From Crocinitomicaceae bacterium (GTDB lineage: Bacteria; Bacteroidota; Bacteroidia; Flavobacteriales_D; Crocinitomicaceae): a stretch of 37,507 nt of DNA. Each line of letters opens with the position of its first letter. The first letter of the stretch is position 1. The position numbers and the translations under genes are program-made. The DNA lies in NCBI GenBank assembly GCA_021740745.1, contig JAIOZF010000024.1, positions 1 to 37,507 on the forward strand, read 5' to 3'. The notes under the pieces were generated by a model. It did not search any database and was not told the origin of the DNA. It worked only from the letters and a program-made list of their open reading frames with translations. Positions 10,313 through 29,631 of the stretch are shown in pieces.

Positions 10313-10444
10313 TCACTTCTCTTGCCTATTGCCTATTGCACATCCATCACATTTCCCATCTGCTTTGAAGAACCGTTGATAGAATTGCCACGCTATATAG
10401 GAAACAGCAGCAGTAATTACCAATATGACCAAAATTACTTGCAT
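10313..10444 (-). CDS. FeoB-associated Cys-rich membrane protein
   Basis: A 43-residue protein starting at the ATG 10444-10442. The start overlaps the feoB stop codon by one base (TAATG), a classical coupling arrangement; the longer upstream reading frame is just feoB sequence. One membrane helix (about residues 2-20, VILVILVITAAVSYIAW) is followed by a basic stretch and a KCDGC cysteine pair. This matches the FeoB-associated Cys-rich protein family found after feoB in many Bacteroidetes and Firmicutes, thought to help ferrous iron transport. The last residues (AIGNRQEK) are encoded by three tandem heptamers (10319-10339), so the C terminus seems to have been written by a repeat. Confidence 0.85.
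   Translation of the reverse strand: MQVILVILVITAAVSYIAWQFYQRFFKADGKCDGCAIGNRQEK
10319..10339 (-). repeat. heptamer tandem array at the 3' end of the FeoB-associated gene
   Basis: Three tandem 7-nt units on the + strand: CTCTTGC, CTATTGC, CTATTGC. They encode the C-terminal residues of the 43-residue protein, whose stop codon lies just beyond. They share the 7-nt period with arrays at 12716, 27701 and 29604. Confidence 0.6.
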
Positions 10445-12399
10445 TAACTTAGAATATAATAAGTGATAAATGATCCGATGTAGGCGAGTACGCCCATAAA
10501 AGCAATTTGAATCAATGGCCATTTCCATGATTTTGTCTCACGTTTAACAACAGCTAATGTCGCCATACATTGCATGGCGAATACATAAAAGATCATTAAA
10601 GAAGCTCCGGATGCCAAGGTATAAACGGGTCTTCCATCTGAACGCTTTTCATCGCGCATACGATCAATTAAACGTTTATTATCATCACTATCACCTTGAA
10701 CTGCATATATTGTTGCTAAGGAACCGACAAATACTTCTCTCGCCGCAAATGATGTGATTAACGAAATACCGATTTTCCAATCGTAGCCCAAAGGAGCTAT
10801 CACAGGCTCAATTCCCTTTCCAAGTATTCCGATATACGAATTTTCTAAGCGAGCAGAAGCAATATTGCTATTCGTTTCTTCGGCGCTCAAATGCTGTTCC
10901 CACGCATGAACTTTTGCTTTTTGCTCTGCTTTATCCATTCGATCACCTGGACCAAAAGTTGCCATTGCCCACAAAATGACTGAAATCGCTAAGATGATTT
11001 TACCGGCATCTAATACAAATACACGTACTTTCTCCCAAACAGTCAGACCTACATTTCCCCAACGAGGTGATTTGTAACTCGGTAATTCTAATAACAAATA
11101 TCCTTTTTCCTTGGAGCGAATGAGCATTTTCAACAAAGCAGCAATGAGAAGAGCCGTAACCAAGCCAAGTGAATAGAGTCCGAATAAAACCAATCCCTGC
11201 AAGTTTAAAAAACCAAGTACTTTTTCATTGGGAATCACTAAAGCGATAAGCAAGGTATAAACAGGAATTCGTGCGCTACAACTCATTAAAGGTGCAACAA
11301 GAATGGTTATTGTTCTTTCTTTCCAATCTGAAATAGTGCGCGTAGCCATCACGCCAGGAATGGCACAAGCGGCGCTTGACAATAGGGGAACAACACTTTT
11401 GCCGTTCAATCCTAAAGGTCGCATCAAACGATCCATGATAAATACTACGCGGGCTAAATATCCTGTCTCTTCCAGAATTGATATGAAGAAAAATAACAAG
11501 GCAATTTGAGGAATGAAAATGACAACTCCACCAATACCGGGAACAATTCCTTGACTCAATAAATCGGAGAACAAACCTGCTGGCAACGTATTGCTTAACC
11601 AAGAACTTAAATCAGAAAATGTTCCATCAATGAAATCCATCGGTATGGCAGCGAAAGAAAAAATGAATTGGAAAATAATCATCAAAATAGCTGCAAAAAT
11701 CACATATCCAAAAATGGGGTGAACGAGGATTTTATCTAAACTATTTTGTTGTTTGGCAGTCGGTTTTTCAACTTGTTGTTCCACCAATGAAACTACTTTT
11801 TTAATCAACCCAAAGCGATCATTGGCTTCTTTTTCTTGCCCTTGTTGATCATCTAACTTACATAATTTGTAGTTTGGTAAAAAGGCTTGCTCGACTGTTG
11901 AAGGTTCCTTAAATTGTAGCTCCTTCATTAAGCGATCTTTTCCAACGCCAATTCGTGCGGTCGTTTCAATGATTTTTGTTCCAGGAAAAAAACCTTCCAG
12001 TCGAGCGATATCAATTGTTTTGCCATTTTTACGGGCAATATCAGCCATATTCAAAACTAATATTGTCGGAATGTTGAGATCGTAGATTTGTGAGAACAGA
12101 AATAAATTTCGTTCTAAATTCGATTCATCCACCACAACGATGGCAACGTCAGGATAATCAATGTGATTTGGATTCGAAAGAACATCATACACCACTTGCT
12201 CATCTTTCGAGCGAGGATAAAGACTGTATGTTCCAGGGAAATCAATAATTGAATGGTCTTCGCCACCAAGCGTAATATTGCCGAATTTTTTGTCAACCGT
12301 TACTCCAGGAAAATTTCCAACGTGTTGACGCATTCCAGTTAACATATTGAAAACTGAACTTTTGCCGGTATTTGGATTCCCTAATAACGCGATTTTCAT
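10444..12399 (-). CDS. feoB: ferrous iron transport protein B
   Basis: GTPase-coupled Fe(II) permease of the cytoplasmic membrane, 651 residues. The N-terminal G domain shows G1 GNPNTGKSS (7-15), G3 DFPGT (about 53-57) and G4 LNMAD (about 115-119). A helical linker and a multi-span membrane domain follow, with two Gate-like regions (for example FIPQIALLFFFISILEETGY, and SCSARIPVYTLLIALV in the second part). The C-terminal part after EVFVGSLATIYAVQG ends with two hydrophobic segments. It lies 9 nt after feoA and overlaps the FeoB-associated gene by one base, making a three-gene feo operon driven from 12668-12697. Identification is secure. Confidence 0.97.
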   Translation of the reverse strand: MKIALLGNPNTGKSSVFNMLTGMRQHVGNFPGVTVDKKFGNITLGGEDHSIIDFPGTYSLYPRSKDEQVVYDVLSNPNHIDYPDVAIVVVDESNLERNLFLFSQIYDLNIPTILVLNMADIARKNGKTIDIARLEGFFPGTKIIETTARIGVGKDRLMKELQFKEPSTVEQAFLPNYKLCKLDDQQGQEKEANDRFGLIKKVVSLVEQQVEKPTAKQQNSLDKILVHPIFGYVIFAAILMIIFQFIFSFAAIPMDFIDGTFSDLSSWLSNTLPAGLFSDLLSQGIVPGIGGVVIFIPQIALLFFFISILEETGYLARVVFIMDRLMRPLGLNGKSVVPLLSSAACAIPGVMATRTISDWKERTITILVAPLMSCSARIPVYTLLIALVIPNEKVLGFLNLQGLVLFGLYSLGLVTALLIAALLKMLIRSKEKGYLLLELPSYKSPRWGNVGLTVWEKVRVFVLDAGKIILAISVILWAMATFGPGDRMDKAEQKAKVHAWEQHLSAEETNSNIASARLENSYIGILGKGIEPVIAPLGYDWKIGISLITSFAAREVFVGSLATIYAVQGDSDDNKRLIDRMRDEKRSDGRPVYTLASGASLMIFYVFAMQCMATLAVVKRETKSWKWPLIQIAFMGVLAYIGSFITYYILS

Positions 12400-12408
12400 A
12401 GGACAAAC

Positions 12409-12657
12409 TTAGACAAAATCTTCTGTTGAATTGCTTGCTTTAACAAGTATTAGCTTTGCTTCATCCAAACGCAATGAAAGAATATATCCTTGGACATCAA
12501 TTGCAATCGGATCACCAAAAGGCGCTTTGAATAAAACAGTAATTTCTTTCCCATTCACCAAGCCCATTTCCATCAACTTCGGTTTCAAAGTAGAATCAGA
12601 AATACCCGTCACAATTACATGCTGACCAGTTTTGATATGTGCTAATGTTTTGTTCAT
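12409..12657 (-). CDS. feoA: ferrous iron transport protein A
   Basis: An 82-residue cytoplasmic SH3-like protein that assists FeoB. It has the typical FeoA pattern LMEMGLVNGKEITVLFKAPFGDPIAIDVQGYILSLR (positions about 28-63; the MEMGL and GDP segments are diagnostic). It is the first gene of the feo operon, 9 nt before feoB, and starts 10 nt after a full Bacteroidetes promoter. I could not identify a convincing Fur box. Confidence 0.95.
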   Translation of the reverse strand: MNKTLAHIKTGQHVIVTGISDSTLKPKLMEMGLVNGKEITVLFKAPFGDPIAIDVQGYILSLRLDEAKLILVKASNSTEDFV

Positions 12658-12667
12658 GTTGAATTAA

Positions 12668-12697
12668 CAAAAATAGCTTAAAGTCATGAAAACCCAA
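12668..12697 (-). promoter_or_regulatory. promoter of the feoAB operon
   Basis: On the minus strand: TTG (12697-12695), exactly 19 nt, then TATTTTTG (12675-12668), a full TTG-N19-TAnnTTTG match. Ten nucleotides separate the box from the feoA ATG. Confidence 0.8.
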
Positions 12698-12715
12698 GTA
12701 CCACTTTTAGGGTAT

Positions 12716-12757
12716 AATTCAGGAAACGAGATTCGGGATTCGGATTTCAGGATTCGG
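12716..12757 (-). repeat. heptamer tandem array downstream of aspartate kinase
   Basis: Six tandem 7-nt units read on the + strand: AATTCAG, GAAACGA, GATTCGG, GATTCGG, ATTTCAG, GATTCGG. A weaker 7-nt rhythm (GCC at 12778 and 12785, TCTA at 12792 and 12799) continues up to the aspartate kinase stop codon. It fills most of the space between that gene and the feoA promoter. Confidence 0.65.
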
Positions 12758-12806
12758 AATTGGCTCAAGCTTCTAATGCCTTATGCCTCTATCTAATCTC
12801 TAGTTC

Positions 12807-14081
12807 CTATCCTAAATCTTTCATAACCAATCGAGCAGTTTGACGCGTTTTTTGCTGCAACAAAATCTCTTTGTTCTCTGTTACACGCTTCAACGTTTCG
12901 TCGTCGTAGTGTCGAATTGTTACCAATTCTAAGCCTTCGTTGTAACGAACTTCATAGGTGTCCTTGAATAAGTCAATGATTTGATCTGGATCCACCTTAC
13001 TTCTGTCTAGCAAAATAGAGAAGTTCAAGGCAGAATTTTGCATTAAATTTATTTTGGCGTTGACTTTTGCTAAACGGTTAAAGATATCACTCAAATTCTC
13101 TTCAATGATAAACGAGAAATCTTTGGTTGTAAATGAAAAAAGAATTTGATCCATCTTAAAAATGAACGAGGGAACCAAATCATCCTTCGCTGTTGATTCT
13201 TGAATCACTGTTCCAGACGCACTTGGATCAATAAACGATTTCACGTACAAAGGAATCTTCTTGTTTTGAAGTGGTTTGATCGTTTTCGGGTGAATAACCG
13301 ACGCGCCGTAATACGACAATTCGATTGCTTCTTTAAATGATATGCTGTCCAATTTAATCGTATTGTCGAACCATTTTGGATCGGCATTCAGCATTCCTGG
13401 AACATCTTTCCAGATAGTTACGCTCTCTGCATTGGTGCAATACGCAAATATCCCAGCGGTATAATCAGATCCTTCACGGCCTAAAGTAGTGGTGAATCCT
13501 TCTGGAGTGTGTCCAACAAATCCTTGAGTTACTTGGATGTCAAATGACTGGAAAACGGGTAAGAAACGTGTTTCTATTAATTCTTCGGTTTTATCCCAAT
13601 CAACATTTCCTTCTTGGTAAAGGTTATTTGTTCGCACTAATTTACGCGCATCAGCCCATGTTGCTGAGTGACCTTTTTCGAACAAAAAGCTTGCAACTAT
13701 TTTAGAAGAAATAACTTCTCCGAGTGAAACAATTTGATCATACTCAAAACTATAATTATCTGGAAAAGGTTGGTTGAATCTTGCTCTTAGTTTTTCAAAA
13801 ACATCTTCAATATCATTGTATAAGGTATAGTGGCGCTCCAGGAACAATTCTCCCATGATATTCATGTGAAACTCATAAATATCATCTACTAAGGCTTTGA
13901 ATATTTTGGGTTCGTTCTTTGAATAGGCCTTGACAATTTCTTCTAGTTTATTGGTGGTTTTACCCATCGCGGATACAACTACCGTAATTTTTTCACCTGA
14001 AAATAGATTTAGAATGTCTGAAACATTTCTAACAGCATTGGCATCTTTTACAGAGGCACCACCAAATTTGAAAACTTTCAT
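12807..14081 (-). CDS. lysC: aspartate kinase (monofunctional)
   Basis: Phosphorylates aspartate, the committed step to lysine/diaminopimelate, threonine and methionine. The 424 residues comprise an amino-acid kinase domain with KFGGASV (5-11), VVSAMGKTTNKL (about 35-46), TTLGREGSDYTAG (198-210) and WKDVPGMLNADP (224-235), then an ACT-type regulatory region from about 300 (FSFTTKDFSFIIEENL onward). No homoserine dehydrogenase domain is fused, so the lysC symbol is given by exclusion. It follows gpsA after 75 nt and has an exact -7 box (14098-14105), so it may be transcribed both from its own start and by read-through. Its 3' flank carries the heptamer array. Confidence 0.93.
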   Translation of the reverse strand: MKVFKFGGASVKDANAVRNVSDILNLFSGEKITVVVSAMGKTTNKLEEIVKAYSKNEPKIFKALVDDIYEFHMNIMGELFLERHYTLYNDIEDVFEKLRARFNQPFPDNYSFEYDQIVSLGEVISSKIVASFLFEKGHSATWADARKLVRTNNLYQEGNVDWDKTEELIETRFLPVFQSFDIQVTQGFVGHTPEGFTTTLGREGSDYTAGIFAYCTNAESVTIWKDVPGMLNADPKWFDNTIKLDSISFKEAIELSYYGASVIHPKTIKPLQNKKIPLYVKSFIDPSASGTVIQESTAKDDLVPSFIFKMDQILFSFTTKDFSFIIEENLSDIFNRLAKVNAKINLMQNSALNFSILLDRSKVDPDQIIDLFKDTYEVRYNEGLELVTIRHYDDETLKRVTENKEILLQQKTRQTARLVMKDLG

Positions 14082-14097
14082 GAAATTGATTTTTGCG

Positions 14098-14105
14098 CAA
14101 AAATA
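14098..14105 (-). promoter_or_regulatory. Bacteroidetes -7 box upstream of aspartate kinase
   Basis: TATTTTTG on the minus strand is an exact TAnnTTTG match, 16 nt before the start codon. No TTG occurs at the normal 19-nt distance, so support is partial. Confidence 0.4.
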
Positions 14106-14156
14106 ACAATAATCGTAAAGTTAAGATTTTCGTGCAATTGTCTTTGGATGGAAATA

Positions 14157-15155
14157 CTACGTTAATTTATCTGTCAGAATACGCATTTCAATGACTGGTG
14201 AAATTCGTTCGTATAAAATCCGGTAAACTGCCTCAACAATCGGCATTTCTACTTGGAATTTTTTATTGATTTCCATAACGCATTTTACAGCATAATAGCC
14301 TTCTGCAATCATGTCCATCTCAAGTTGAGCGGTTTTAACAGAATATCCTTTTCCGATCATGAAACCAAAACTTCTATTTCGAGAAAATTGAGAATAGGCT
14401 GTCACCAATAAATCTCCTAGATAAGCACTTGATTTAACGTCACGGTGAATCGGACTAACTTCGTCAATGAAATTTTCAATTTCTTGAATGGCATTGGAAA
14501 TTAATACCGCTTGAAAGTTGTCACCGTAGCCAAGTCCAGAACAAATTCCAGATGCAACAGCGTAAACATTTTTAAGAACTGCTGACAATTCTGTTCCAAA
14601 TAAATCGTCGGAAACGGTTGTTTTAATATAACGACAAGCTAATAATTCAGCCATTTCATCCGCACTTTCTTCATTTTGAGAGGCAATAGTTAAGTAAGAA
14701 AGACGCTCTAAAGCTACCTCTTCTGCATGACAGGGTCCACAAATAATTCCAATGTGGTTATAGGGAACATCAAAGGTTTTATGAATGAAACGCGCCGGTA
14801 TTGCATTGAATTCGGGAATAATTCCTTTCACTGCAGAATAGACTATCTTTCCTTTCATTGCATCTTTAGGGAAATTCTCGAAGATTTTCGTTAAAAAGGC
14901 TGATGGAGTTGCAATGATGACAATATCTGCTGGTCGAATTATTTCTTCTAAGTCAGTGCTGACATTGATTTTATTTAAATCGAATTCAACAGATTGTAGG
15001 TAATTTGGATTGTGTCGGTACTTCAAAATATGACCAACTGCTCCTTCATTACGCATCCACCAATTGACAGAATTGAGGTTATTGCACAAAATTTTCACGA
15101 GTGCAGTTGCCCAACTTCCACCACCAATAACGGCTATTTTCTTAGAATCTTCCAT
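14157..15155 (-). CDS. gpsA: glycerol-3-phosphate dehydrogenase [NAD(P)+]
   Basis: Reduces dihydroxyacetone phosphate to sn-glycerol 3-phosphate for phospholipid synthesis; cytoplasmic. The 332 residues match the family length. N-terminal Rossmann motif IAVIGGGSWATAL (7-19), IATPSAFL (81-88), the lysine-bearing SAVKGI (107-112) and catalytic K195 in SAVLKNVYAVASG. GPCHAEE (140-146) replaces the more usual GPSFAxE. HRDVKSSAYLGDLLVTAYS lies in the C-terminal helical domain. An exact TAnnTTTG box precedes it. It is followed on the same strand by aspartate kinase; the two pathways are unrelated. Confidence 0.95.
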   Translation of the reverse strand: MEDSKKIAVIGGGSWATALVKILCNNLNSVNWWMRNEGAVGHILKYRHNPNYLQSVEFDLNKINVSTDLEEIIRPADIVIIATPSAFLTKIFENFPKDAMKGKIVYSAVKGIIPEFNAIPARFIHKTFDVPYNHIGIICGPCHAEEVALERLSYLTIASQNEESADEMAELLACRYIKTTVSDDLFGTELSAVLKNVYAVASGICSGLGYGDNFQAVLISNAIQEIENFIDEVSPIHRDVKSSAYLGDLLVTAYSQFSRNRSFGFMIGKGYSVKTAQLEMDMIAEGYYAVKCVMEINKKFQVEMPIVEAVYRILYERISPVIEMRILTDKLT

Positions 15156-15165
15156 GCTTCTTGGG

Positions 15166-15173
15166 CAAATTTA
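15166..15173 (-). promoter_or_regulatory. Bacteroidetes -7 box upstream of gpsA
   Basis: TAAATTTG on the minus strand is an exact TAnnTTTG match, 10 nt before the gpsA ATG. A TTTG exists further upstream, but not at 19-nt spacing. Confidence 0.45.
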
Positions 15174-15204
15174 GCGAATTAATTAAAACAGAGAGTGATT
15201 CGAT

Positions 15205-15789
15205 TCAAACGAGTCCGTTTTGAGGCAAGCTAAATGGCAATGGTCCAACTTTATGTGACTTAAGAATCAGTTTGTTTTTTTTCTTGTTGTACCTGAAAAT
15301 CAGATTCGTATTAAATTTTCTTGTTTCGTCACTCTTTAATTGTCCAACAACATAGACCTTGTATCCTCTTGCATCTGGACCAGTTTTTTTCCCCTTCCTT
15401 TTTTTAAGTAAAATGATTGCTTGAAATAAATCGTGATCCTTCGTTTCGAAGTACTTGTTTTTTCGCACAAGCTCTCGAACAACATTTTGTCGTATTTCTT
15501 CTTGATCAGTTTTGGAATAAATGCCATTCAACCAGTCTTCACCTAATTTTGTTGCTGCTATTACCTTAGAAATTGAATCGTTGTAATTGACAAAATATTC
15601 AATTCCTTTTAATTCAATAACATCATTTCCAGCAAATTCAAAATTGATTTTATTTTCTAATCCAACCGTCAATAACGCATTATTCCGTTCAATGGACATA
15701 GGTCGACCCATTAAGTAATAGGTGAACGATTTTTGTGACCAAACGACACTAGTAAGCGCAAAAAATGCAAAAAGGAGAATGAATTTCAT
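15205..15789 (-). CDS. secreted hypothetical protein
   Basis: A 194-residue protein with a clear signal peptide (MKFILLFAFFALTSVVWSQ, cleavage after about residue 19) and no lipobox, so periplasmic or secreted. The mature part is basic, with runs such as LKKRKGKKTG and YNKKKNKL, and has no cysteines or known motifs. I do not recognise the family. It lies downstream of the T9SS metalloprotease on the same strand, with 39 nt between them that hold a terminator-like hairpin only 7 nt from its start codon. No -7 box fits in that gap, so expression may depend on read-through. Its base use resembles its neighbours. Confidence 0.65.
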   Translation of the reverse strand: MKFILLFAFFALTSVVWSQKSFTYYLMGRPMSIERNNALLTVGLENKINFEFAGNDVIELKGIEYFVNYNDSISKVIAATKLGEDWLNGIYSKTDQEEIRQNVVRELVRKNKYFETKDHDLFQAIILLKKRKGKKTGPDARGYKVYVVGQLKSDETRKFNTNLIFRYNKKKNKLILKSHKVGPLPFSLPQNGLV

Positions 15790-15795
15790 AGTGTG

Positions 15796-15820
15796 AAAAA
15801 GGCTGCACTTTCATGCAGCC
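15796..15820 (-). terminator. terminator (or attenuator) after the metalloprotease gene
   Basis: Perfect 7-bp stem GGCTGCA / TGCAGCC with a 6-nt loop, followed on the minus strand by TTTTT (15800-15796). It lies just after the protease stop codon and ends 6 nt before the start codon of the next gene. Confidence 0.75.
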
Positions 15821-15828
15821 ACTTTACG

Positions 15829-18510
15829 TTATTGTTTAATAAGTTGACGAACAAGTGTTCCATTTGTACCAATCAATCGAATGAAATAAACACCTTTACT
15901 CATCCCTGCTGTTTGAATACTTGAATGGTTTTCACTGTTAATCGATTCTCTATAAATAAGTTTACCTGCTGCATCTGTCAATTCGATGTTTTCAATTTCA
16001 ATTCCAGTCCAATTCACAGTTACTATGTCGGTAAATGGATTAGGTTGAACATTTATAAACGCATTCGCGATGTCAGCAATTCCAGATTGATCAACCAAAA
16101 AGCAAGTTGATGTATCCGAACATGCGCCCATTGTTACGATTACGGCGTATGATCCAGTTAATTGGTCTGTCGCATATGATTGATTTGTTTCGCCTGCTAC
16201 AGGACTATTAGAATTCGCACAATCAATCCATTGATAGCTTGCCCCATTTTGATTAGCGCTTAGCAATATTCCGTTTTGAGTTACACTATTATCAATTTGT
16301 GCAGGAACAGTTACAGTAACTGAACCGCACGATGAACCTGCGCAACCGCCTGTTCCGATGGCATAATATGTTGTGGTTGTTAATGGATTAACGGTCAAAC
16401 TTGTTCCTGTTCCGATTGATGTTCCATTGCATGAGCCACTAAACCATTCCCATTGAGTAGCTTGGTTCAAATTTCCTGAAGTAATTGTGACTGTTGCATC
16501 GTCACCATAACAGTTTGGTGCTACTGAGCTTAGACTTGGCACATCTGGTTGAACACATGTTGTAATGGTAAAGTTATTGTTAGAAATGTCAAAGAAAGTT
16601 CCCGCTGCAGAAATAATCATGATGCGTGCGGTTGTTGTTGGAGTAGCAGGAACCAAAACAGATTCGGACCCATCATTCGTTGTACCTGCATTTAATTCAA
16701 TCGGATAGCTTAAACCACCATCAATTGACAATAGAATGCGAACTGAACTGCAGTTTACCGGAGCTAAATTTGTGTTTGCAACATTCCATGTCACAGTTTG
16801 TGTGCTGTTTTCAGGCCAGCTAATTCCGGTTGCATCTGGGTAAGTTACTATGAATGGTCCAGCCGCAGCAGTTGTTGAAAGCGTAACATCTGTATAGTCG
16901 TTGCATGATCCAACGGCATGATTGTCTTTAACTGAAACCCTGAAATTCATGGTGCGTGTTACTGAAGGAATTACCTCCCATGTAAAAGGTCCATTATTCG
17001 CTAGAGCACTCAATTTCGGGAAATATCGAGTTGGCAACGTATCAGGATCAAAACTTCTAAAGTTCGGTCCACCAGTTGCTGTTGCTACAGGCGGCTGAGT
17101 AGATGCTTGGTTGTTCATTTGTTCCCACAAATAAGTCAATTGGTCACCGTCAACATCAGTGGCAATGGCAGTCAAAGCAAATGGAGTATTGGCAGGAACA
17201 GTAACATTCCCATTCGTTGATGCGATAACAGGTGGTGTATTATTTAAACTTGTCAATACTTCACATGTGTGTCCATTACTTAAAATTTCAATACTGATTT
17301 CACCTAAGTTATATCCATGGAAATAGTCATCACTATTGCTTTGTACATCTGGCGCACAAATTCCAGCATAACCCATAATTGTAGATGCACTTCCTGGTTC
17401 TCTGCGAGCAGCCGCAACACTGTTGCAATTATTGTTTTGAGTATGGTTACCACCAAATTGATGACCTATTTCGTGCGCCACATAATCAATGTCAAATGGA
17501 TCGCCCACTGGAGCGGAACTTCCTGTTACACCTCGCGCTTTTTGCCCACCAGTGCATACGACACCTAATCCTGCTAGTCCACCACTATTGGTTCCAAACA
17601 CGTGACCAATATCATAGTTGGAACTTCCGATTTGATTATCAACATTTGTCTGATTTTGATTAATCATTGTTCCTGGATTCCCATTCGCGTATGGATCTGA
17701 ACCAGCATTTGTGTAAACAATTAAGTTGTTATTAGGAACAATCACCATCGTAATAGCAATGTCTTTTTCATAGACACCATTTACTCTGTTCATAGTTGTT
17801 ACTTGCGCTGCTTGAGCTAAAGCCAATGTACCTCCTTGAAAAGTGGTGTATTCTCCTGTTGCAGCAACTGCCAAGCGGTATGTACGTAAATCACAAGAAC
17901 CAAACATTGCTTTAATATTTGCAAGTTCAGGTTCACTCATTGTTTCTGTTTCCATTGATTGTACTTGGCAATCAATTACTTTAGAGGTAATAAAATCTTT
18001 TTTACGGTAAACGATGTAATATTCTGTATTTCCATCCATGTATGGGTCAATGAAAATTGTGCTTTGACCTGGGATAAAAATCATAGCGTGTAATCCTTGA
18101 GGTGTAATATCCCATTTTCCATAGGCGCCTGATCCATCTTTTGCATATGCATCATAGCTTCTTATTTCAGGAAAAAGGGCATTTAAATCAGGATGCATTG
18201 TTTGGTTTCTTTTTACCGAATAGGCTTTCGTTGTTCCATCGGTATGAGGTAATTGCAAATGTCCAACAAAGCCATTTATTTGTCCTTCACGATACGTTAC
18301 ACCTTCTAATTGCTGACGCAAGGATTCGATGTCTAAACGAAATAATTGAAAAGCAGAAGCTTGAATCCTTGGTTCTCCAATTATTGGAACTCCTGCGGAA
18401 CTTACATTTTCAATGTCGTATTGGATGTGTTTAATGGTTTGTGCAGAGAAACTAAAGCTCCACAAAAGAAAGGATAGAGAAATTCCTCTCATCAAAAATA
18501 AATAGTTCAT
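15829..18510 (-). CDS. secreted reprolysin-like zinc metalloprotease with T9SS sorting domain
   Basis: An 893-residue extracellular protease. The signal peptide (about residues 1-24; an alternative start at M8 would still give one) is followed by a propeptide to about 205. The catalytic domain has the zinc site HEIGHQFGGNH (346-356; H346, E347, H350, H356) and a Met-turn at M379 (STIMGYAG), the metzincin pattern of M12B-like bacterial proteases. The region 425-800 looks like Ig/cadherin-type beta modules, including SVTVTVPAQID-type repeats. The last about 75 residues (QPNPF ... GVYFIRL ... QLIKQ) are a type A type IX secretion domain, cleaved on export. A weak promoter (TTG-N20-TAATTTTA) lies upstream. 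Expected role: digestion of extracellular protein. Confidence 0.92.
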   Translation of the reverse strand: MNYLFLMRGISLSFLLWSFSFSAQTIKHIQYDIENVSSAGVPIIGEPRIQASAFQLFRLDIESLRQQLEGVTYREGQINGFVGHLQLPHTDGTTKAYSVKRNQTMHPDLNALFPEIRSYDAYAKDGSGAYGKWDITPQGLHAMIFIPGQSTIFIDPYMDGNTEYYIVYRKKDFITSKVIDCQVQSMETETMSEPELANIKAMFGSCDLRTYRLAVAATGEYTTFQGGTLALAQAAQVTTMNRVNGVYEKDIAITMVIVPNNNLIVYTNAGSDPYANGNPGTMINQNQTNVDNQIGSSNYDIGHVFGTNSGGLAGLGVVCTGGQKARGVTGSSAPVGDPFDIDYVAHEIGHQFGGNHTQNNNCNSVAAARREPGSASTIMGYAGICAPDVQSNSDDYFHGYNLGEISIEILSNGHTCEVLTSLNNTPPVIASTNGNVTVPANTPFALTAIATDVDGDQLTYLWEQMNNQASTQPPVATATGGPNFRSFDPDTLPTRYFPKLSALANNGPFTWEVIPSVTRTMNFRVSVKDNHAVGSCNDYTDVTLSTTAAAGPFIVTYPDATGISWPENSTQTVTWNVANTNLAPVNCSSVRILLSIDGGLSYPIELNAGTTNDGSESVLVPATPTTTARIMIISAAGTFFDISNNNFTITTCVQPDVPSLSSVAPNCYGDDATVTITSGNLNQATQWEWFSGSCNGTSIGTGTSLTVNPLTTTTYYAIGTGGCAGSSCGSVTVTVPAQIDNSVTQNGILLSANQNGASYQWIDCANSNSPVAGETNQSYATDQLTGSYAVIVTMGACSDTSTCFLVDQSGIADIANAFINVQPNPFTDIVTVNWTGIEIENIELTDAAGKLIYRESINSENHSSIQTAGMSKGVYFIRLIGTNGTLVRQLIKQ

Positions 18511-18705
18511 AATTCTAGTTTTAGCACCATAAAATTACTAAAAATCAGCTTTAAAATCAACAATTTGATTTTCTAATTTTGATTGAATACGCAGTAATTA
18601 GCGGCTGATTAGTTTTTTTTCTGACGAAAATCAGTTTTTTATCTAACTGAACTCATTCTTTGGCTCTGTATTCTAAAAGATATTTGCTTAATAAAAATAG
18701 AACGT

Positions 18706-18996: not shown

Positions 18997-19014
18997 GTAT
19001 TCCAATATACAAGG

Positions 19015-19036: not shown

Positions 19037-19050
19037 AGGTTTTCTATTAG

Positions 19051-22709: not shown

Positions 22710-23329
22710 GAGCTCACATCCACCTGTTCTAATCGTGTGTCAATCAATTTCACCAATTCACCAAAATCTTTATCCGCATGCTCATCGTTACGGAACCTGA
22801 AATCAGCAAATGAAGCATAAGGTAGTAAGTAATTCTTATAACAAGGCATTACATGGTGTTCCCATTGATACATAATGTCTTCTTTGGAGTATCCTCTCGT
22901 GGTTTGATCTCTTAATAAGCGTCGATCCAATTGTGTTTCGGGGTGCACAGAAATAAAAATAGACAAATCGATTACAGCTCTAACCATTTCATAATGAAAT
23001 AAGAAAAGTCCTTCCACAATGATTAGTTGCGAGGGACGAATCATAACTGTTGTATCTAAATCTGGTGGAGCATTGAAATGATATTCTTTCACATGAATGT
23101 GTTCGCCGTTAATTAATCGGTACAAATCATCGATTAATTTTCGCTCATCCAAGGCAGATGGGAGATCAAAATTTACTTTTCCATTGTCATCAATCGCTTG
23201 ATTTCCTATGGGAAGATAGTAATTGTCCATCGAAAAGACAGACGGTTGCAAATGCGCGTACGTTTCAGAAATACGTTTTAAAAGTGTTGTTTTTCCGGAA
23301 CCACTTCCTCCACAAATACCAATTATCAT
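22706..23329 (-). CDS. udk: uridine kinase
   Basis: Salvage enzyme phosphorylating uridine/cytidine to UMP/CMP in the cytoplasm. The 207-residue protein has P-loop GGSGSGKTT (7-15), the substrate segment SMDNYYLP (about 33-40), FDLPSALD (about 54-61), an IIVEGLFLF Walker-B-like strand and RRLLRDQTTRGYS (LID/arginine region). The PRK/uridine kinase group is clear. Both ends overlap neighbours by 4 nt (ATGA): the secreted 403-residue protein upstream and the sensor kinase downstream. Tight translational coupling of a nucleoside kinase to a sensor kinase is unusual, and its meaning is unknown. Confidence 0.9.
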   Translation of the reverse strand: MIIGICGGSGSGKTTLLKRISETYAHLQPSVFSMDNYYLPIGNQAIDDNGKVNFDLPSALDERKLIDDLYRLINGEHIHVKEYHFNAPPDLDTTVMIRPSQLIIVEGLFLFHYEMVRAVIDLSIFISVHPETQLDRRLLRDQTTRGYSKEDIMYQWEHHVMPCYKNYLLPYASFADFRFRNDEHADKDFGELVKLIDTRLEQVDVSS

Positions 23330-24537
23330 TTTTTAATCAATTCGAAATTAACACTAGTAGGTTTTTTTAGTTGATTTACATCAAATAAAAATAAACTTGT
23401 TGCCAAAGATACAGTAAATCTATCGCTTGATGAATCTTGCATCACACGACTTGGATTATTTGGCGTTAATTTCGAATGAATGTTCTTCACAACTTTTTTA
23501 CTTGCGTCTCTCGGAAGAAAATAATCAAAGGCGCCACTTGCTATTGCAAGTCCCTCATTCATAGAGAATACGGCAAATTTTTCAAGCTTTTTGCTGTTTT
23601 CTGCAGCAATCGGTGTTGATTGTATTTTTTCCCATTTCCCATTTTTCAACACATACATTTCTAGAAATCTTCCAGCACTGCTCGTTTGAATTCCTGTCAA
23701 ATAAAAGTTGTCATTACTTCTAACAATTACACCTGTTTGATTGTCACTTAACCCAAGGTAATATTTTCCTGACATTCCAAAAGGAGCAACAAGTGATGTT
23801 TCAAATGAAAAAGACGGTGCAGAAATGAATGAGGTATTCGTTGTTTCACCTCTTGAATTGGTTGTTCTCATTGACCAACCAACTTTTTTATCTTGAATAT
23901 CTTTTGTTACAAAGAAGATATTCTCTCCTTGAAATCCGCAATAATTCCAATGCCCATATCGCACATCTTTTAAATTTTCTTCACTTACTTCTCCTAATAT
24001 ATTGGTGTATAACAGCATGTTATTATGCGTCATCGCAACCAAGAAATCGATGTATTTTTTTTCTTTTTTATCATTCCAACGCAGCACAAACAGAAGCGAT
24101 TTATCTGTGGTAATAACATCGATAAGCTTCATTTCATTGTAGTCATATTTACCTAGTTTCTTGATGGCATTTCCAACATCTACACTCGAGCTTTTGAAAT
24201 TTCCTGCACTATTTATTTGATGAAAGGACATTTTTCCACCGATAAGTTCTAATTGATCTAAGAAATAGACATATCGAGCATTTTCACTAGAAATAAAATA
24301 GTATGCATCTGTGTTTGGATTGAAACTTTCTTGCCAAGTACTTGTTGGGTTTTCACCAACCATGGTTACATTTATTTTCTTTTTCAATCCTGTAGGATCC
24401 CTGTTTAAAAGCAATGAGCCAGTGCCTTTCCACTCAACAATATCAAAAAACGGGTATTCTTCTGCAGGAAGGGTGAACTGTTGCGCATGGTTTGAAAAAC
24501 CAAGAATGACTAAAAAAAAGAGAGTTGTTATTTTCAT
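23326..24537 (-). CDS. secreted hypothetical protein, first gene of the udk/kinase operon
   Basis: A 403-residue protein with a signal peptide (MKITTLFFLVILGFSNHAQ). The mature part consists of short alternating beta-strand-like segments with aromatic residues, for example DAYYFISSENARYVYFLDQ and LLFVLRWNDKKEKKYID, which would suit a beta-propeller-like fold; this is inference only. No catalytic motif and no T9SS sorting domain. It overlaps udk by ATGA and is divergent from the redoxin gene across 140 nt. I do not recognise the family. It could supply a signal to the sensor kinase encoded two genes downstream, but the only basis is the shared operon. Confidence 0.65.
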   Translation of the reverse strand: MKITTLFFLVILGFSNHAQQFTLPAEEYPFFDIVEWKGTGSLLLNRDPTGLKKKINVTMVGENPTSTWQESFNPNTDAYYFISSENARYVYFLDQLELIGGKMSFHQINSAGNFKSSSVDVGNAIKKLGKYDYNEMKLIDVITTDKSLLFVLRWNDKKEKKYIDFLVAMTHNNMLLYTNILGEVSEENLKDVRYGHWNYCGFQGENIFFVTKDIQDKKVGWSMRTTNSRGETTNTSFISAPSFSFETSLVAPFGMSGKYYLGLSDNQTGVIVRSNDNFYLTGIQTSSAGRFLEMYVLKNGKWEKIQSTPIAAENSKKLEKFAVFSMNEGLAIASGAFDYFLPRDASKKVVKNIHSKLTPNNPSRVMQDSSSDRFTVSLATSLFLFDVNQLKKPTSVNFELIKK

Positions 24538-24677
24538 AGAAATGAGTATTTTGGGGTCAATTTTGCAAACATTAGGTTAAAAATAGTTGTTTAAACGGAA
24601 TAAACTAAGCCTTACAGTTGAATTTCAGTTTATACTGGCGAAGAATAATGACCATAAATTTTAATAATATAGAATAG

Positions 24678-25331
24678 ATGTATAAGATACAGATTAAAAA
24701 CACTTTTCTTTTTTTAGTTCTAGTGCCAACGTTTTTATTTGTTTGTTCGTCTTTTGTTGGTAACAACAAGGGTAATAAAGGATTGAAAGTTGGTAAATCA
24801 GCCCCAATGAGTGATGTTAAATTACAAGGAATAGATAATTCGACCAAGAGTTTGAACGATCTTAAATTGGAGAATGGATTGTTGGTTGTCTTTTCTTGTA
24901 ATACTTGTCCGTTTGTTGTTGGGAATGATCATTTTGCTGGTTGGGAAGTGCAATACAATGCCTTGAATACATTGGCGCTCGACAAAAAAGTAGGAATGGT
25001 GTTGATTAACTCCAACGAAGCAAAGAGAGCAAATGAAGACTCGTTTGAGGCAATGAAACTGCATGCTTCCGAAAAAGGATATACGATGCCTTATTTGGTG
25101 GATACAGACTCGAAAATGGCAGATGCATTTGGCGCAAAAACGACACCACATGTTTATCTTTTTGATAAGAATATGAAATTGGTTTACGTTGGATCAATTG
25201 ACAATACATGGGATACGAAACGCACAGAAGAATTGACGTATCTGAAAAATTCTTTAGAAACCTTATCAAAAGGAGAAAAAATTAAAGAAAAAGAAACGAC
25301 ACCTCGCGGGTGCAGCATTAAACGAAAATAA
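24678..25331 (+). CDS. exported thioredoxin-fold redoxin
   Basis: A 217-residue thiol-redox protein. A hydrophobic N terminus (about 10-26) acts as signal or anchor; C23 is not in a good lipobox. The thioredoxin-like domain of the AhpC/TSA-redoxin branch carries FSCNTCPFV with C74 and C77 (CxxC). The cis-proline region is TTPHVYLFD, followed by LVYVGSIDN. A lone C-terminal cysteine (C212, TTPRGCSIKRK) is a known mark of this Bacteroidetes redoxin group. Role: probably thiol-disulfide or peroxide chemistry in the envelope; exact substrate unknown. The T9SS protease gene follows after 35 nt, so the two may be co-transcribed, which would fit disulfide handling of a Cys-rich secreted protease. 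Confidence 0.82.
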   Translation: MYKIQIKNTFLFLVLVPTFLFVCSSFVGNNKGNKGLKVGKSAPMSDVKLQGIDNSTKSLNDLKLENGLLVVFSCNTCPFVVGNDHFAGWEVQYNALNTLALDKKVGMVLINSNEAKRANEDSFEAMKLHASEKGYTMPYLVDTDSKMADAFGAKTTPHVYLFDKNMKLVYVGSIDNTWDTKRTEELTYLKNSLETLSKGEKIKEKETTPRGCSIKRK

Positions 25332-25366
25332 AAACGCTAACTATAAATTAAGCTTAAACTAGAAGT

Positions 25367-27643
25367 ATGAAAAAACAATTACTTATTCTTTCCGCGATTC
25401 TCTTAGGCGGAATTTCCTTTGCCCAACAAGGTGATGGAGGCACACCAAAAGGCCAAAAGGTCAGTTCAAATTTTAAAACAATGGACTCTAAAACTTTTGT
25501 ACAGCCAGATATAGCTGCATTGCAAGCTGAAGATGCTTTAGTTGATGGGACAGGAACTGCTCCATGGAGATTTGGATTTAACAATTATACTAACCTTGGA
25601 TTAAACAATGCTGGTACTTGGTATGACTTGCCAAATGGTGATAAATTGTGGTTGTTAAAAGTGACGTGTGAAAATGCCTTAACGGTTAACTTGACTTTCA
25701 AAGAAACAGAGATTACCGAAGGGAACGAATTGTACGTTTACAACCCAGACAAATCATTTATTCTTGGAAAATTTAGTGCTTACCATACGTATGAAGGCGT
25801 TTTAGGAACAGAATTGGTTCCTGGAAACACAGCAATTGTTGAATATTATGTTCCTCAAGCAAATGCCAATAAAATTGGAAATGTTACGGTTGGGACTGTA
25901 ACACATGGTTATAGAACAGCAAATGAATTTATGGAGAAAGCATTTGGAAGTTCAGGTTCTTGTAACATGAATGTGAATTGTACAGATGGTGCTGCTTGGA
26001 CAGATCAACGCAATGGTGCAGTGATGCTTGTTTCAGGAAGTTCAGGTTTTTGCTCAGGATCTTTAATTAACAATACTTTGAATGATGGGAAACCTTATGT
26101 ATTAACAGCAAATCACTGTTACAGCAATCCAGCATCTTGGATTTTCCGCTTCAACTGGCAATCTACTGGTTGTGCGAATGGTTCAAATCCGTCCTTCGTT
26201 TCTTTGTCGGGAGCAGTATTACGTTCAAGAAGAACACCATCAGATTTCTGTTTAGTGGAAATAACAGGTGGTTTAGTAGGTGGTACTGTGCCAGCTTCTT
26301 ATTCTCCTTATTTCTCAGGTTGGGACAATAGTGGTACAATTCCAACATCTACTGTAAGTATCCACCATCCGTCAGGGGATATCAAAAAAATCTCTTTCGA
26401 TGATGCGGCAGCAGGAATTTCTCAAGGAATGGGTTCAACTGAAGCTAATTCAACATGGACAGTAGAGTGGGATAGAAACACTACCACTGAAGGCGGTTCA
26501 TCAGGTTCACCTATATTTGATCAAAATCACCGAATCATTGGTCAATTATGGGGTGGAGGGGCATCATGTTCAAACCTTTCATCTCCTGATTATTACGGTC
26601 GTGTATCAAATTCTTGGAATCCTGCGAGCAGTAATTCAACAAATCAATTGAAATTTTGGTTAGATCCAAACAATGCAGGTGCTCAGTTTATTGATGGTTA
26701 TGATCCATCTGGAGCGTCATCTGTTGCAATTGATGCAGGATTAAACAACCCACAAGGTGTGTCAGGTACTTTCTGCGGAGCGGTTGTTTCTCCTCAAATT
26801 ACTATTTCAAACGGCGGAACAACTACGTTAACATCTGCGACAATTACGTACGGTGTGGATGGTGATTATAGTAATTCTTTCCCTTGGACAGGTTCATTGG
26901 CACAATATCAAACTGCTGCTGTTACACTGCCTAATATGACTTTGCCAGCTGGAAATCATACGTTCAATGCACAAGTTACGAGCCCAAATGGTTCAACTGA
27001 TGAGAATGCAAACAATAACTTGATAACTTCAGCTTTAACCATTGTGGTAAATGGTCAAACGGTTACGTTAAGTTTAGATTTGGATTGCTATGCATCTGAA
27101 ACTTCATGGGAATTGAGGGATGCTTCAAATACAGTTCTATACTCAGAGTCTGGTTATTCAGATGGTACACAAGGAATAATAACACGTGATTTTTGTCTGT
27201 CATACGGTTGTTATTCATTTAAATTAATGGATTCTTATGGTGATGGATTGACAAATTGCTCTGCAGCTAATGGTGGTAACGGAAGTTATAACATCACCTA
27301 CAATAGTGCGATTGTTGCTGAACTTTTAGAAGCAGATGCGAACTTTGCATTTACAAATACTAAGAATTTCTGTATACAAGATGTTACAGGTTTAGGTGAA
27401 ATTGATCTTTCTAATGCAGTTAGTATCTATCCTAATCCAGCAAACGAAACTGTAACAGTTTTTGCAAATAACTTAGATGTTACTAAAATTGAATTATTGA
27501 ACATAGCTGGACAAGTAATTTCAACTGTAACTGAAACAGCATCAACAACTAAATTGAATGTTTCTCAAATAGCTTCTGGAGTGTATTTAGTTAAAACGTA
27601 TACAACTGAAGGTACTGCAACAAAACAATTGATTATCAAATAA
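25367..27643 (+). CDS. secreted trypsin-like serine protease with T9SS sorting domain
   Basis: 758 residues, signal peptide MKKQLLILSAILLGGISFAQ. A propeptide-like region to about 195 is followed by an S1-type protease domain with the triad H250 (VLTANHC), D293 (SDFCLVE) and S379 (GGSSGSP). The layout resembles lysyl endopeptidase-type enzymes, with paired cysteines flanking the active site. A CARDB-like beta module follows (about 455-560), then a module with YGCYSFKLMDSYGDGL typical of Bacteroidetes secreted proteins. The last about 75 residues (SIYPNPANETV ... GVYLVKTY ... QLIIK) are a type A T9SS domain. It is 35 nt after the redoxin gene and ends at a strong terminator. Confidence 0.93.
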   Translation: MKKQLLILSAILLGGISFAQQGDGGTPKGQKVSSNFKTMDSKTFVQPDIAALQAEDALVDGTGTAPWRFGFNNYTNLGLNNAGTWYDLPNGDKLWLLKVTCENALTVNLTFKETEITEGNELYVYNPDKSFILGKFSAYHTYEGVLGTELVPGNTAIVEYYVPQANANKIGNVTVGTVTHGYRTANEFMEKAFGSSGSCNMNVNCTDGAAWTDQRNGAVMLVSGSSGFCSGSLINNTLNDGKPYVLTANHCYSNPASWIFRFNWQSTGCANGSNPSFVSLSGAVLRSRRTPSDFCLVEITGGLVGGTVPASYSPYFSGWDNSGTIPTSTVSIHHPSGDIKKISFDDAAAGISQGMGSTEANSTWTVEWDRNTTTEGGSSGSPIFDQNHRIIGQLWGGGASCSNLSSPDYYGRVSNSWNPASSNSTNQLKFWLDPNNAGAQFIDGYDPSGASSVAIDAGLNNPQGVSGTFCGAVVSPQITISNGGTTTLTSATITYGVDGDYSNSFPWTGSLAQYQTAAVTLPNMTLPAGNHTFNAQVTSPNGSTDENANNNLITSALTIVVNGQTVTLSLDLDCYASETSWELRDASNTVLYSESGYSDGTQGIITRDFCLSYGCYSFKLMDSYGDGLTNCSAANGGNGSYNITYNSAIVAELLEADANFAFTNTKNFCIQDVTGLGEIDLSNAVSIYPNPANETVTVFANNLDVTKIELLNIAGQVISTVTETASTTKLNVSQIASGVYLVKTYTTEGTATKQLIIK

Positions 27644-27662
27644 TCTTGAAATTTCTTTAAAC

Positions 27663-27695
27663 AAAAAATCCTCAACGCAAGTTGAGGATTTTTTT
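27663..27695. terminator. bidirectional terminator between protease and aldehyde dehydrogenase genes
   Basis: Stem ATCCTCAAC / GTTGAGGAT, extended by A/T pairs to 14 bp, with a GCAA loop, A tract before and T tract after. It fits both convergent genes, the protease (+) and the dehydrogenase (-). Confidence 0.9.
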
Positions 27696-27700
27696 GTATC

Positions 27701-27742
27701 TACAATCTACAATCTGCAATTTGTAATCTATAATCTGCAATC
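27701..27742 (-). repeat. heptamer tandem array downstream of aldehyde dehydrogenase
   Basis: Six tandem 7-nt units on the + strand, exactly in phase over 42 nt: TACAATC, TACAATC, TGCAATT, TGTAATC, TATAATC, TGCAATC, preceded by a shortened TGTATC. Consensus TRYAATC. It lies between the terminator and the dehydrogenase stop codon. Confidence 0.75.
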
Positions 27743-27749
27743 AATATCC

Positions 27750-29192
27750 TCAATACTTAATAAACACATTCTTAGGTTCGGTAAAGAAGCGCAAAGCCTC
27801 TAAACCACCTTCTCTTCCAACACCAGAAGCTTTAACTCCTCCGAAAGGTGTGCGTAAATCACGCACCAGCCAAGAATTGATCCATACGATACCTGACTGT
27901 ATTTTATCTGCCATGCGATGTGCACGTTTTAAATCACTAGTCCACAAAGTTGCAGCAAGACCATATTGAGTTGAATTGGCCATCATCAATACTTCTTGCT
28001 CTGTATCAAAAGGTGTAATAGTAACTACTGGACCAAAAATTTCTTCTTGATTTGTTCTACAATCGTATGCTAATCCTTCGATTACGGTTGGTCGCAAGTA
28101 ATAACCATCTTTGAATGCACCTTCTAATTGAACGCGAACACCACCTGTTAAAACGGTTCCGCCTTCTTCTTTTGCTAACTCAACATAGGACAATACTTTT
28201 TCCAAATGTGGTAAGGAAACTACTGCACCAAGTATTGCTTTAGGATCTTCTGGATTCGAGACGGTTGTTTTAGCCACTTTCGCAACAAATGCTTCTTTGA
28301 ATTTATCGTAGATTGGTCGCTCCACAAAGATTCGTGAACCACAAAGGCAAATTTGTCCTTGATTTGCGAACGAAGAGCGTAATGTAGTACTCAGCATATC
28401 GTCAAAATCACAATCTGCAAAAATGATATTTGGATTTTTACCCCCTAATTCAAGTGATAACTTTTTAAACATCGGAGCTGCTGTGCGGGCAATATATTCT
28501 CCCGTTTTTGTTCCACCTGTGAATGATATCGCTTTAATTTTTGGATGTTTTACAATAGCATCACCAACACTTCCTCCCAATCCGTGTAAAATATTCAATA
28601 CGCCATCCGGCATTCCAGCATCTTTTGCTACTTGTCCTAATAGATAAGCAGTATAAGGTGTAATTTCGGAAGGTTTTGCTACCACACAATTTCCGGCAGC
28701 TAAAGCAGGTGCAATTTTCCACGAAAACAGGTACAGAGGTAAATTCCATGGCGAAATACAACCAACAATTCCAACTGGCTTGCGAATGGTATAATTAATT
28801 CCAACACCTTCCATGTAATGTGATTCTGACGAAAAGTGTATGATGCCTGTTGCGAAAAAATGAAAATTTGAGATTGCTCGCGGAATATCAACATGAGCGG
28901 CAAGTGTCAATGGTTTCCCATTGTCACGCGATTCAGCGGCTACAAATTCATCCATTCGCTTTTCAATTCCTTCAGATAAGCGAACTAAAATCGCACTGCG
29001 ATCTTCAGCACTCATACTCGACCAAATTGGAAATGCGTCTTCAGCTGCTTTCACAGCAAGTTCAACATCTCTTTCATCGGAGTTGGGAATTAAACTATAT
29101 ACTTTGCCCGTTGCTGGCTCGTAATTATCGATGTACTCGCCACCAATAGGTGCGCAGTAATTGCCATTGATGAAATTTTGTAATTTTTCCAT
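27750..29192 (-). CDS. aldehyde dehydrogenase, ALDH8-like (2-aminomuconate/2-hydroxymuconate semialdehyde type)
   Basis: NAD-dependent dehydrogenase of 480 residues. Cofactor segment ISPWNLPLYLFSWKIAPALAAGN, glycine motif SFTGGTKTGE, general-base segment LELGGKNPNIIF and nucleophile in FANQGQICLCGSRIFVE (first Cys of CLC), followed by EEIFGPVV. The NQGQICLC and PWNLPLYLFSWK segments closely resemble human ALDH8A1 and bacterial 2-aminomuconic/2-hydroxymuconic semialdehyde dehydrogenases, which act in tryptophan (kynurenine) or catechol meta-cleavage breakdown. No other gene of those pathways is in the window, so the substrate assignment is tentative; family membership is firm. It follows the VanZ-like gene after 15 nt, probably as one transcript. 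Confidence 0.88.
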   Translation of the reverse strand: MEKLQNFINGNYCAPIGGEYIDNYEPATGKVYSLIPNSDERDVELAVKAAEDAFPIWSSMSAEDRSAILVRLSEGIEKRMDEFVAAESRDNGKPLTLAAHVDIPRAISNFHFFATGIIHFSSESHYMEGVGINYTIRKPVGIVGCISPWNLPLYLFSWKIAPALAAGNCVVAKPSEITPYTAYLLGQVAKDAGMPDGVLNILHGLGGSVGDAIVKHPKIKAISFTGGTKTGEYIARTAAPMFKKLSLELGGKNPNIIFADCDFDDMLSTTLRSSFANQGQICLCGSRIFVERPIYDKFKEAFVAKVAKTTVSNPEDPKAILGAVVSLPHLEKVLSYVELAKEEGGTVLTGGVRVQLEGAFKDGYYLRPTVIEGLAYDCRTNQEEIFGPVVTITPFDTEQEVLMMANSTQYGLAATLWTSDLKRAHRMADKIQSGIVWINSWLVRDLRTPFGGVKASGVGREGGLEALRFFTEPKNVFIKY

Positions 29193-29207
29193 GTATTGTT
29201 TTTCGCT

Positions 29208-29582
29208 CTACGAAATTACATTGAATTTTAATAAAATTTGATTGATTGCTTTTCGAAAGAGCAGAAATAACACGATTCCAATACTAACACCAGCAGAATT
29301 GGCTAGAAAGTCATAAAAAGAAGTTTCTCTCCCGACAAATGATTGGAGAAATTCAATCAATATTCCATAAGTCACAATAAGTAATGTTGACACCGTATAT
29401 TGCATGATGTTCTTCCCCAATAATAGAATATTTAATGAAAAAACAGCGTAAGCAATAAAATGACCTACTTTGTCATTCGTTGGAATAGTCAAATTAGTTC
29501 GAGGGGGCATTAAACTTAAGACAGTAATGGCTACAAAAACAACCAAGGCCGATAAAAAAATGAATCTCCTCCCTCTAAACAT
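29208..29582 (-). CDS. VanZ-like membrane protein
   Basis: A 124-residue inner-membrane protein with four hydrophobic segments (about 8-22, 42-57, 62-80 and 93-110). The VanZ-family pattern is DKVGHFIAYAVFS in the second part and GILIEFLQSFVGRETSFYDFLANSAG in the third (E, Q, R, D spaced as in the family). The family is named after teicoplanin-resistance VanZ, but most members, including chromosomal bacteroidete ones like this, have no proven role. It precedes the aldehyde dehydrogenase by 15 nt. No glycopeptide-resistance genes are nearby. Confidence 0.85.
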   Translation of the reverse strand: MFRGRRFIFLSALVVFVAITVLSLMPPRTNLTIPTNDKVGHFIAYAVFSLNILLLGKNIMQYTVSTLLIVTYGILIEFLQSFVGRETSFYDFLANSAGVSIGIVLFLLFRKAINQILLKFNVIS

Positions 29583-29603
29583 ATCTTTTTCTAATCGTTA
29601 CTT

Positions 29604-29631
29604 CCTTAAGCCATATGCCTGACGCCTCAAA
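29604..29631 (-). repeat. heptamer tandem array downstream of the S9 peptidase
   Basis: Four 7-nt units on the + strand, each beginning with CC: CCTTAAG, CCATATG, CCTGACG, CCTCAAA (CC at 29604, 29611, 29618 and 29625). It lies directly after the S9 peptidase stop codon. It is more degenerate than the other arrays. Confidence 0.45.

Follow-up and report, generated by a model that had tools for sequence, protein, structure and literature searches.

Heptamer tandem arrays in the intergenic DNA of a Crocinitomicaceae bacterium and related Bacteroidota

Introduction

Compact bacterial genomes are generally thought to be poor in satellite-like DNA, and the STRR of heterocystous cyanobacteria are heptamer tandem repeats with fixed words. 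Here we describe tandem arrays with a 7-nt period in a Crocinitomicaceae bacterium (Bacteroidota; assembly GCA_021740745.1), in a stretch of 37,507 nt that is called the window throughout (contig JAIOZF010000024.1, positions 1 to 37,507), in the remainder of the genome and in relatives. We regard these arrays as probable satellites of intergenic DNA, grown by slippage, able to spread and tolerated beside stop codons.

Heptamer repeats have precedents in the parts of the literature that were available to us. TAACTGA direct repeats were reported from Beggiatoaceae, Cyanobacteria and five Bacteroidetes (MacGregor 2015, PMC4679880); in Gramella and Aequorivita, the spacers that hold them contain further heptamers, whereas the corresponding spacers of relatives are shorter and have no obvious repeats (PMC4679880). 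Heptanucleotides are the commonest class of long simple sequence repeat (LSSR) in most genomes, and polymerase slippage, with an explanation of the 7-nt preference by polymerase contact, has been put forward (Mrazek 2007, cited in PMC4679880 and PMC4692102). Three Calothrix heptanucleotides are also mentioned (PMC4679880, PMC4692102). A survey of DNA-structure patterns found repeats of 6–11 nt over-represented in a few archaea and, in its available part, named no heptamer class of Bacteroidetes (PMC4060949).

Materials and methods

The source genome comprises 3.03 Mb in 137 contigs, of which the window is contig C118. Periodicity was measured throughout by a lag-segment score (match +1, mismatch -1.5). 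The null for the window consisted of 150 dinucleotide-shuffled copies, 6% of which had one match of at least 11 and none of which had two. Genes were called as the longest open reading frames of at least 90 amino acids (80 in the 902,607-base count and 70 in one further listing), so that 5' gene ends are approximate.

The whole-sample count covered 61 stretches of the source genome (902,607 bases, window included), among them contigs C2, C20, C34 and C45, which were sampled though their array content was already known. After removal of these contigs and the window, an array-blind sample of 56 stretches (785,212 bases) remained. Evenly spaced stretches were taken from five relatives (G029, G264, G228, G350 and G161); G264, G228 and G350 had been picked as array-rich after a search of Bacteroidota genomes for the TTAGNNN family, although the stretches themselves were evenly spaced, and some further stretches came from contigs already seen in the TTAGNNN search of relatives. 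Comparisons between genomes used three to seventeen stretches per relative. Three sets of arrays are distinguished below; the third (29 loci) was picked by the TTAG word and is therefore no random sample, and it has one array in common with the first set. For the test of position, arrays in spacers with at least one gene 3' end were counted as stop-proximal when they started no more than 20 nt from a stop codon, with uniform placement as the null.

Results

The heptamer arrays are a real phenomenon at the genome scale. Of the period-7 arrays in the 61 stretches, 26 lay in padded intergenic DNA (109 kb) and a single one in coding interior (774 kb). Chance and the composition of AT-rich spacers would be enough to account for two of the sites claimed in the window (10319 and 29604), which need no further explanation, but as a general account this is refuted by simulation, since order-2 simulated spacers gave about 0.1 period-7 arrays against the 26 observed, and E. 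coli MG1655 had no period-7 match in 200 kb; its probability is practically nil. A preliminary description of the window had proposed to compare period 7 with periods 6, 8 and 9, and the intergenic excess that it expected was found. In the array-blind sample, 13 intergenic arrays had period 7, as compared with 1, 8 and 2 for periods 6, 8 and 9, and 9 and 6 for periods 13 and 14. The five relatives gave 45 arrays of period 7, 16 of period 8, 7 of period 13, 2 of period 6 and 3 of period 9, with no more than 3 at any other period from 4 to 12. Several of the period-13 arrays can be read as alternating 6- and 7-mers. In their 7-nt tandem units beyond random expectation, the arrays resemble heptanucleotide simple sequence repeats in the LSSR sense, which would change in length by slippage between strains; here, gain was seen against relatives. 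A search of relatives that counted the source genome found the TTAGNNN family, repeated as far as a fourth TTAG, in 31 of 60 genomes, and the family was present in 104 out of 296 Bacteroidota genomes.

Some spacers carry arrays of other make-up. A drifted octamer array of 173 nt (TGAAGGAA type) fills a convergent spacer at locus L101 (10465-10637), and a cluster of spacers within 7 kb of contig C52 (G000; L125, 1280-8060) has alternating 6- and 7-nt units of the TTAGAGC/TAGAGG type.

Inside the arrays, the mean difference between units rose as their separation went from 1 to 4 units, namely from 1.40 to 2.25 (38 arrays), from 1.39 to 2.42 (35 arrays) and from 1.36 to 1.93 (23 arrays). In each of these three sets, 500 shuffles of unit order all failed to reach the value for adjacent units. 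The rise with separation argues for local tandem duplication and against repeated copying from a fixed template, and it supports the common expansion mechanism suggested in the preliminary description. The same result disfavours telomerase-like templated addition at broken 3' ends, followed by a joining that would leave inverted arms with the G-rich strand pointing inward, as repeated copying of one template would not predict the decay seen in all three sets. Words do differ between genomes, and arrays with a G-rich strand directed away from the nearest gene number 38 versus 15 in the first set and 20 versus 7 in the later third set (one array being common to both), but the skew of the second set was 23 versus 16 (p 0.34); we consider this mechanism highly improbable.

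The arrays of one genome also share words. In six genomes, the nearest-word distance within the genome was 0.55–1.11, compared to 1.5–2.3 for real intergenic 7-mers, and 0 to 4 of 300 draws were equally low. Unlike words grown on independent seeds, as first proposed for the window, are not supported in view of this sharing among unlinked loci, which goes beyond composition. With matched candidate numbers, the words of other genomes were mostly more distant than those of the same genome: G008, which is of the same genus, had 0.86 within and 2.05 to the source genome, G350 had 0.55 within and 2.2–2.4 to others (where ten words were comparable), and the source genome had 1.3–1.6 within and 1.7–2.2 to others. 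The vocabulary thus differs between most of the genomes compared, the numbers being small (4 to 20 words each). A segment shared with another spacer was found in 17 out of 22 array-bearing spacers and in 47 out of 356 array-free spacers. A bolder interpretation is that heptamer words evolve concertedly in Bacteroidota, with a small genome vocabulary that is exchanged among intergenic sites and replaced between close species, and with inverted arms that are G-rich inward. We think it unlikely; if true, such a vocabulary would amount to a bacterial counterpart of homogenised satellite DNA, maintained by some exchange machinery.

One clean gain between conserved flanks was found in the window itself, between an amino-acid kinase gene and feoA (Table 1). 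The kinase stop is separated from a palindromic ATACC...GGTA box, which looks like the operator of a metal regulator, by 91 nt in the source genome and by roughly 1 to 30 nt in 19 relatives. This 91-nt stretch is missing from all 19 syntenic relatives, which belong to the genus and share the gene pair, and a similar box can be read upstream of feoA in these relatives, all of these comparisons being made by eye. No period-7 array with a score of at least 9 was present at 25 feoA loci of the genus. The part of the insertion at 12763-12810 consists of 7-mers known from other arrays of this genome, with an equally high score in 0.34% of 2985 windows. The distal GGGATTC-type half, in opposite orientation, is not set apart by this test: the 7-mers of 12716-12757, where an array had been claimed, are ordinary for the genome (an equally high score is reached by 31% of spacer windows that have no array), and its lag-7 score of 8.0 (lag-14 score 11.0) is close to the mean maximum of shuffled windows, 7.4. 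That array is therefore weak alone, and it was retained as part of an insertion that the relatives lack.

Table 1. Coordinates of the sites discussed in the window.
Feature	Position	Strand	Description
Period-7 array	27698..27742	-	Sense units GATTGCA, GATTATA, GATTACA, AATTGCA, GATTGTA, GATTGTA; 7 nt downstream of the aldehyde dehydrogenase stop (27750)
Stop-proximal arm of insertion	12763..12806	-	Drifted heptamers of ATTAGAT, AGAGGCA, TAAGGCA, TTAGAAG type, directly after the amino-acid-kinase stop
Distal arm of insertion	12721..12762	+	GAGATTC, GGGATTC, GGATTTC, AGGATTC; G-rich on the + strand; inverted relative to the stop-proximal arm
Conserved feoA upstream box	12698..12715	-	ATACCCTAAAAGTGGTAC; left intact by the insertion; read by eye
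Three-unit repeat, coding	10319..10339	-	C-terminal residues of the FeoB-associated small protein; judged outside the phenomenon
Claimed fourth array	29604..29631	-	Between a prolyl oligopeptidase-type gene and a VanZ-like gene; indistinguishable from chance

The other array of the window that stood is the one downstream of the aldehyde dehydrogenase gene, whose lag-7 score of 20.5 exceeds the maximum of 14.5 among the shuffled windows. The two arrays had been described as exactly 42 nt each; scored boundaries give 45 nt at 27698 and 35 nt at 12727-12761. On the 3' side of the aldehyde dehydrogenase gene, arrays of their own were found within 250 nt in 3 out of 80 relatives, with a different word each time (TAATTCG in L068, AATTGAC type in L034 and period 6 in L029). 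The array of L068 is absent from L080, yet both flanks are common to the two loci, as judged by eye. Differing arrays and empty sites at orthologous places therefore indicate that gain and loss of arrays occur at sites of a similar kind.

Five metagenome-assembled records have an aldehyde dehydrogenase with 92–93% identity to that of the window. Three bear the title Flavobacteriales, one that of Crocinitomicaceae and one, probably a wrong label, that of Chitinophaga pinensis. L069 (CP034120.1), titled as a Glaciecola amylolytica chromosome, has a Fluviicola-like aldehyde dehydrogenase and flank and is probably mislabelled.

Arrays crowd beside stop codons. The tabulation relative to stops that had been suggested for the window showed enrichment in the first set (35 of 52 arrays stop-proximal, 22.2 +- 3.0 expected), in the second set (20 of 35, 12.0 +- 2.5 expected) and in the recount restricted to stretches picked blind to array positions (31 of 51, 17.6 +- 3.0 expected), though not in the TTAG-picked set. 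In tandem spacers, 21 out of 35 arrays started no more than 20 nt from the stop, while 10 out of 35 were within 20 nt of the next start, and at L105, L116 and L123 the array itself supplies the stop codon. This position would fit elements of the mRNA 3' end, that is, terminators, stabilisers or protein-binding sites, as would the scarcity of own-genome intergenic arrays in divergent spacers (1 of 25, where such spacers make up 24% of spacer length, in a sample that includes known array contigs) and the very stable hairpins (lowest z -12.4) that the second set of relatives has at some of its arrays. However, array spacers of the own lineage are less structured than others (mean z -0.86, n=35, versus -1.81, n=120), and on this ground a hairpin or intrinsic terminator role is not supported for that lineage; the second set went in the opposite direction (-4.08, n=22, versus -2.84, n=120), not significantly (p 0.16). 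In addition, a terminator-like hairpin of the ordinary kind, seen by direct reading of the sequence, already adjoins the array at 27698, orthologous genes do without arrays, and divergent spacers of the second set do contain arrays. The role in 3' ends of mRNA proposed in the preliminary description is thus unsupported, and we judge it distinctly unlikely. No Rfam match at the gathering score was found in the window.

In part of the cases, arrays come as inverted arms: several spacers of G350 and G228 consist of an array followed by its own reverse complement (e.g. GATGTTG...CAACATC and CGTGAGA...TCTCACG). Arrays could then belong, as arms, to palindromic elements of MITE or REP type that are mobile as a whole, with the heptamers as terminal inverted repeats, an account that we regard as possible, though unlikely. 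In inverted orientation, arms of the same spacer agreed with no more than one mismatch in 14 out of 56 pairs, as compared with 4.7% of 2202 pairs from different spacers (distances p 0.014), but direct pairs of the same spacer were similarly frequent (12 of 56 versus 6.7%, several being the two ends of one array), and in the source genome only 2 of 13 pairs had an inverted match. The G-rich strands of adjacent same-spacer arrays pointed inward in 5 cases of the first set (1 outward, 3 same, 3 without skew) and in 9 of the second (0 outward, 2 without skew), although the third set had 2 inward pairs and 1 outward. The left half of array spacers was G-skewed over the right in ratios of 33:10 and 28:4 (array-free spacers 520:375 and 152:98), and left-G/right-C skew in the third set was 15:7 for array spacers and 5:10 for others. 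The corresponding rule for single arrays, G over C, was adopted post hoc; it gave 20 versus 7 in the third set and was weak in the recount restricted to stretches picked blind to array positions (33 versus 22, p 0.18). A purine-rich-strand rule, which had held in the first set (42 versus 14), failed in the second (19 versus 23) and was discarded. Units that move whole are also suggested by a 120-nt unit with heptamer-like ends that is common to L127 and L146, and by the REP-like CCCTTCGACAAGCTCAGG within arrays at L115, with a one-base variant at L121. Against them, TTAG arrays occur in G061, G088, G142 and G173, genomes without a Y1 transposase match (PF01797) at E 0.001; RAYT/REP as a required driver is ruled out by these genomes, although REP-like modules do sit in some arrays.

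The dispersed MITE-like unit lies at 12870-13040 of L127 and 3994-4390 of L146 and has 76% identity over its 120 nt. The REP-like CCCTTCGACAAGCTCAGGAACC stands in AATTCAT heptamer arrays, three times at L115 (5960-6075) and with one base different at L121 (15495-15545).

The preliminary description had counted four 7-nt arrays in the window, all at the 3' ends of minus-strand genes; beside the two treated above, those at 10319-10339 and 29604-29631 were dropped. Across periods 4–12, matches of at least 11 occurred in the window at period 7 only, at 27698-27742 (20.5) and at 10319-10339 (11.5), the latter being marginal as 6% of shuffled windows reach 11 or more. The repeat at 10319 is in frame in a 43-residue protein. 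The start of this protein and the feoB stop overlap, and it matches Pfam FeoB_associated with 24.6 bits, slightly below the 27-bit cut-off. A query of 42 residues, in which the repeat corresponds to residues 35–41, matched in 22 relatives of the genus, and in six relatives the alignment continues without stops to residue 41 or 42. The repeat is therefore coding and not 3' flank, and the statement on 3' ends was inexact. At 29604-29631, the lag-7 score of 4.5 and the vocabulary match of 0.05 (null mean 0.15) are at chance level.

The FeoB-associated gene adjoins a Y1-transposase-like gene (9647-10288; Pfam Y1_Tnp 26.2 bits), RAYT-like by our reading, which contains a 24-nt direct repeat at 10068-10113 within its frame.

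Discussion

Taken together, we favour the reading that the arrays are slippage-grown heptamer satellites which spread among intergenic sites and are tolerated beside stop codons; from the patterns described above, we infer the route by which they spread, their neutrality and the enzymatic step, slippage. A short word would be multiplied in tandem by slippage during replication, or by local duplication of a related kind, in steps of 7 nt and at times of 6 or 8, and the units would drift through point mutation while duplication continues. Material with the current words of the genome would travel from one intergenic site to another, by itself or in company with REP-like or palindromic modules, and one genome would therefore carry a vocabulary. 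Arrays would persist mostly right after stops and between genes, where neither coding sequence nor promoter is broken, and in some cases two arms would come to be inverted around a centre.

Several results weigh against this reading. Period 7 is favoured and not exclusive, because periods 8 and 13 are also raised (8 and 9 versus 13 in the array-blind sample), and no period-7 array was found in the lightly sampled G161 (80 kb) and G238 (35 kb, outside the sum of the five relatives). The enrichment at stops was not replicated in the TTAG-picked set (11 of 23 arrays, 10.4 +- 2.0 expected). As for the vocabulary, the words of the source genome are as close to those of G002 as to each other (2.01 versus 2.00, with four words only), G264 and G228, which belong to one genus, share words (1.11 and 0.93), and the sharing of spacer segments is partly trivial, as arrays of like words match each other.

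A phylum with heptamer arrays that spread, drift and change their vocabulary would lend itself naturally to the questions of why duplication prefers steps of 7 nt, how repeats are homogenised between bacterial loci and how new spacer DNA comes to lie between a regulated promoter and a stop codon. The vocabulary common to the loci of one genome is its most interesting side. For annotators, there is the warning that period-7 repeats in such spacers are not necessarily regulatory signals.

Compared with known systems, the arrays share with STRR the heptamer tandem repeats, but STRR have fixed words and belong to another phylum. Like the TAACTGA repeats, they are intergenic heptamer tandem repeats; in that system (PMC4679880), as far as the available text goes, there is one word, which in the Guaymas Maribeggiatoa lies mostly just upstream of starts, whereas here many drifting words lie mostly just after stops. 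TAACTGA was not among the array word lists, which were built from the consensus of at most the first 42 nt of each array. The Xanthomonas GGGAATC-type and Nostoc GGGGA(T/C)T heptamers (Rehm 2015, PMC4692102) are, in the part of the article consulted, likewise intergenic and heterogeneous, with inverted pairs and with length and sequence variable among relatives, and the GGGATTC arm of the window matches a Xanthomonas citri plasmid (45 nt, 82%, E 0.009). They are described there as a single family with the potential for G-quadruplex formation, while here there are several words per genome, by our reading mostly too G-poor for it. No description of genome-specific vocabularies, distance decay or inverted arms in Bacteroidota was found in the accessible parts of the open-access literature. 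By the parts of the two articles at hand, the arrays are a variant of published heptamer repeats, which are known already in Bacteroidetes and, as inverted pairs, in Xanthomonas (PMC4679880, PMC4692102).

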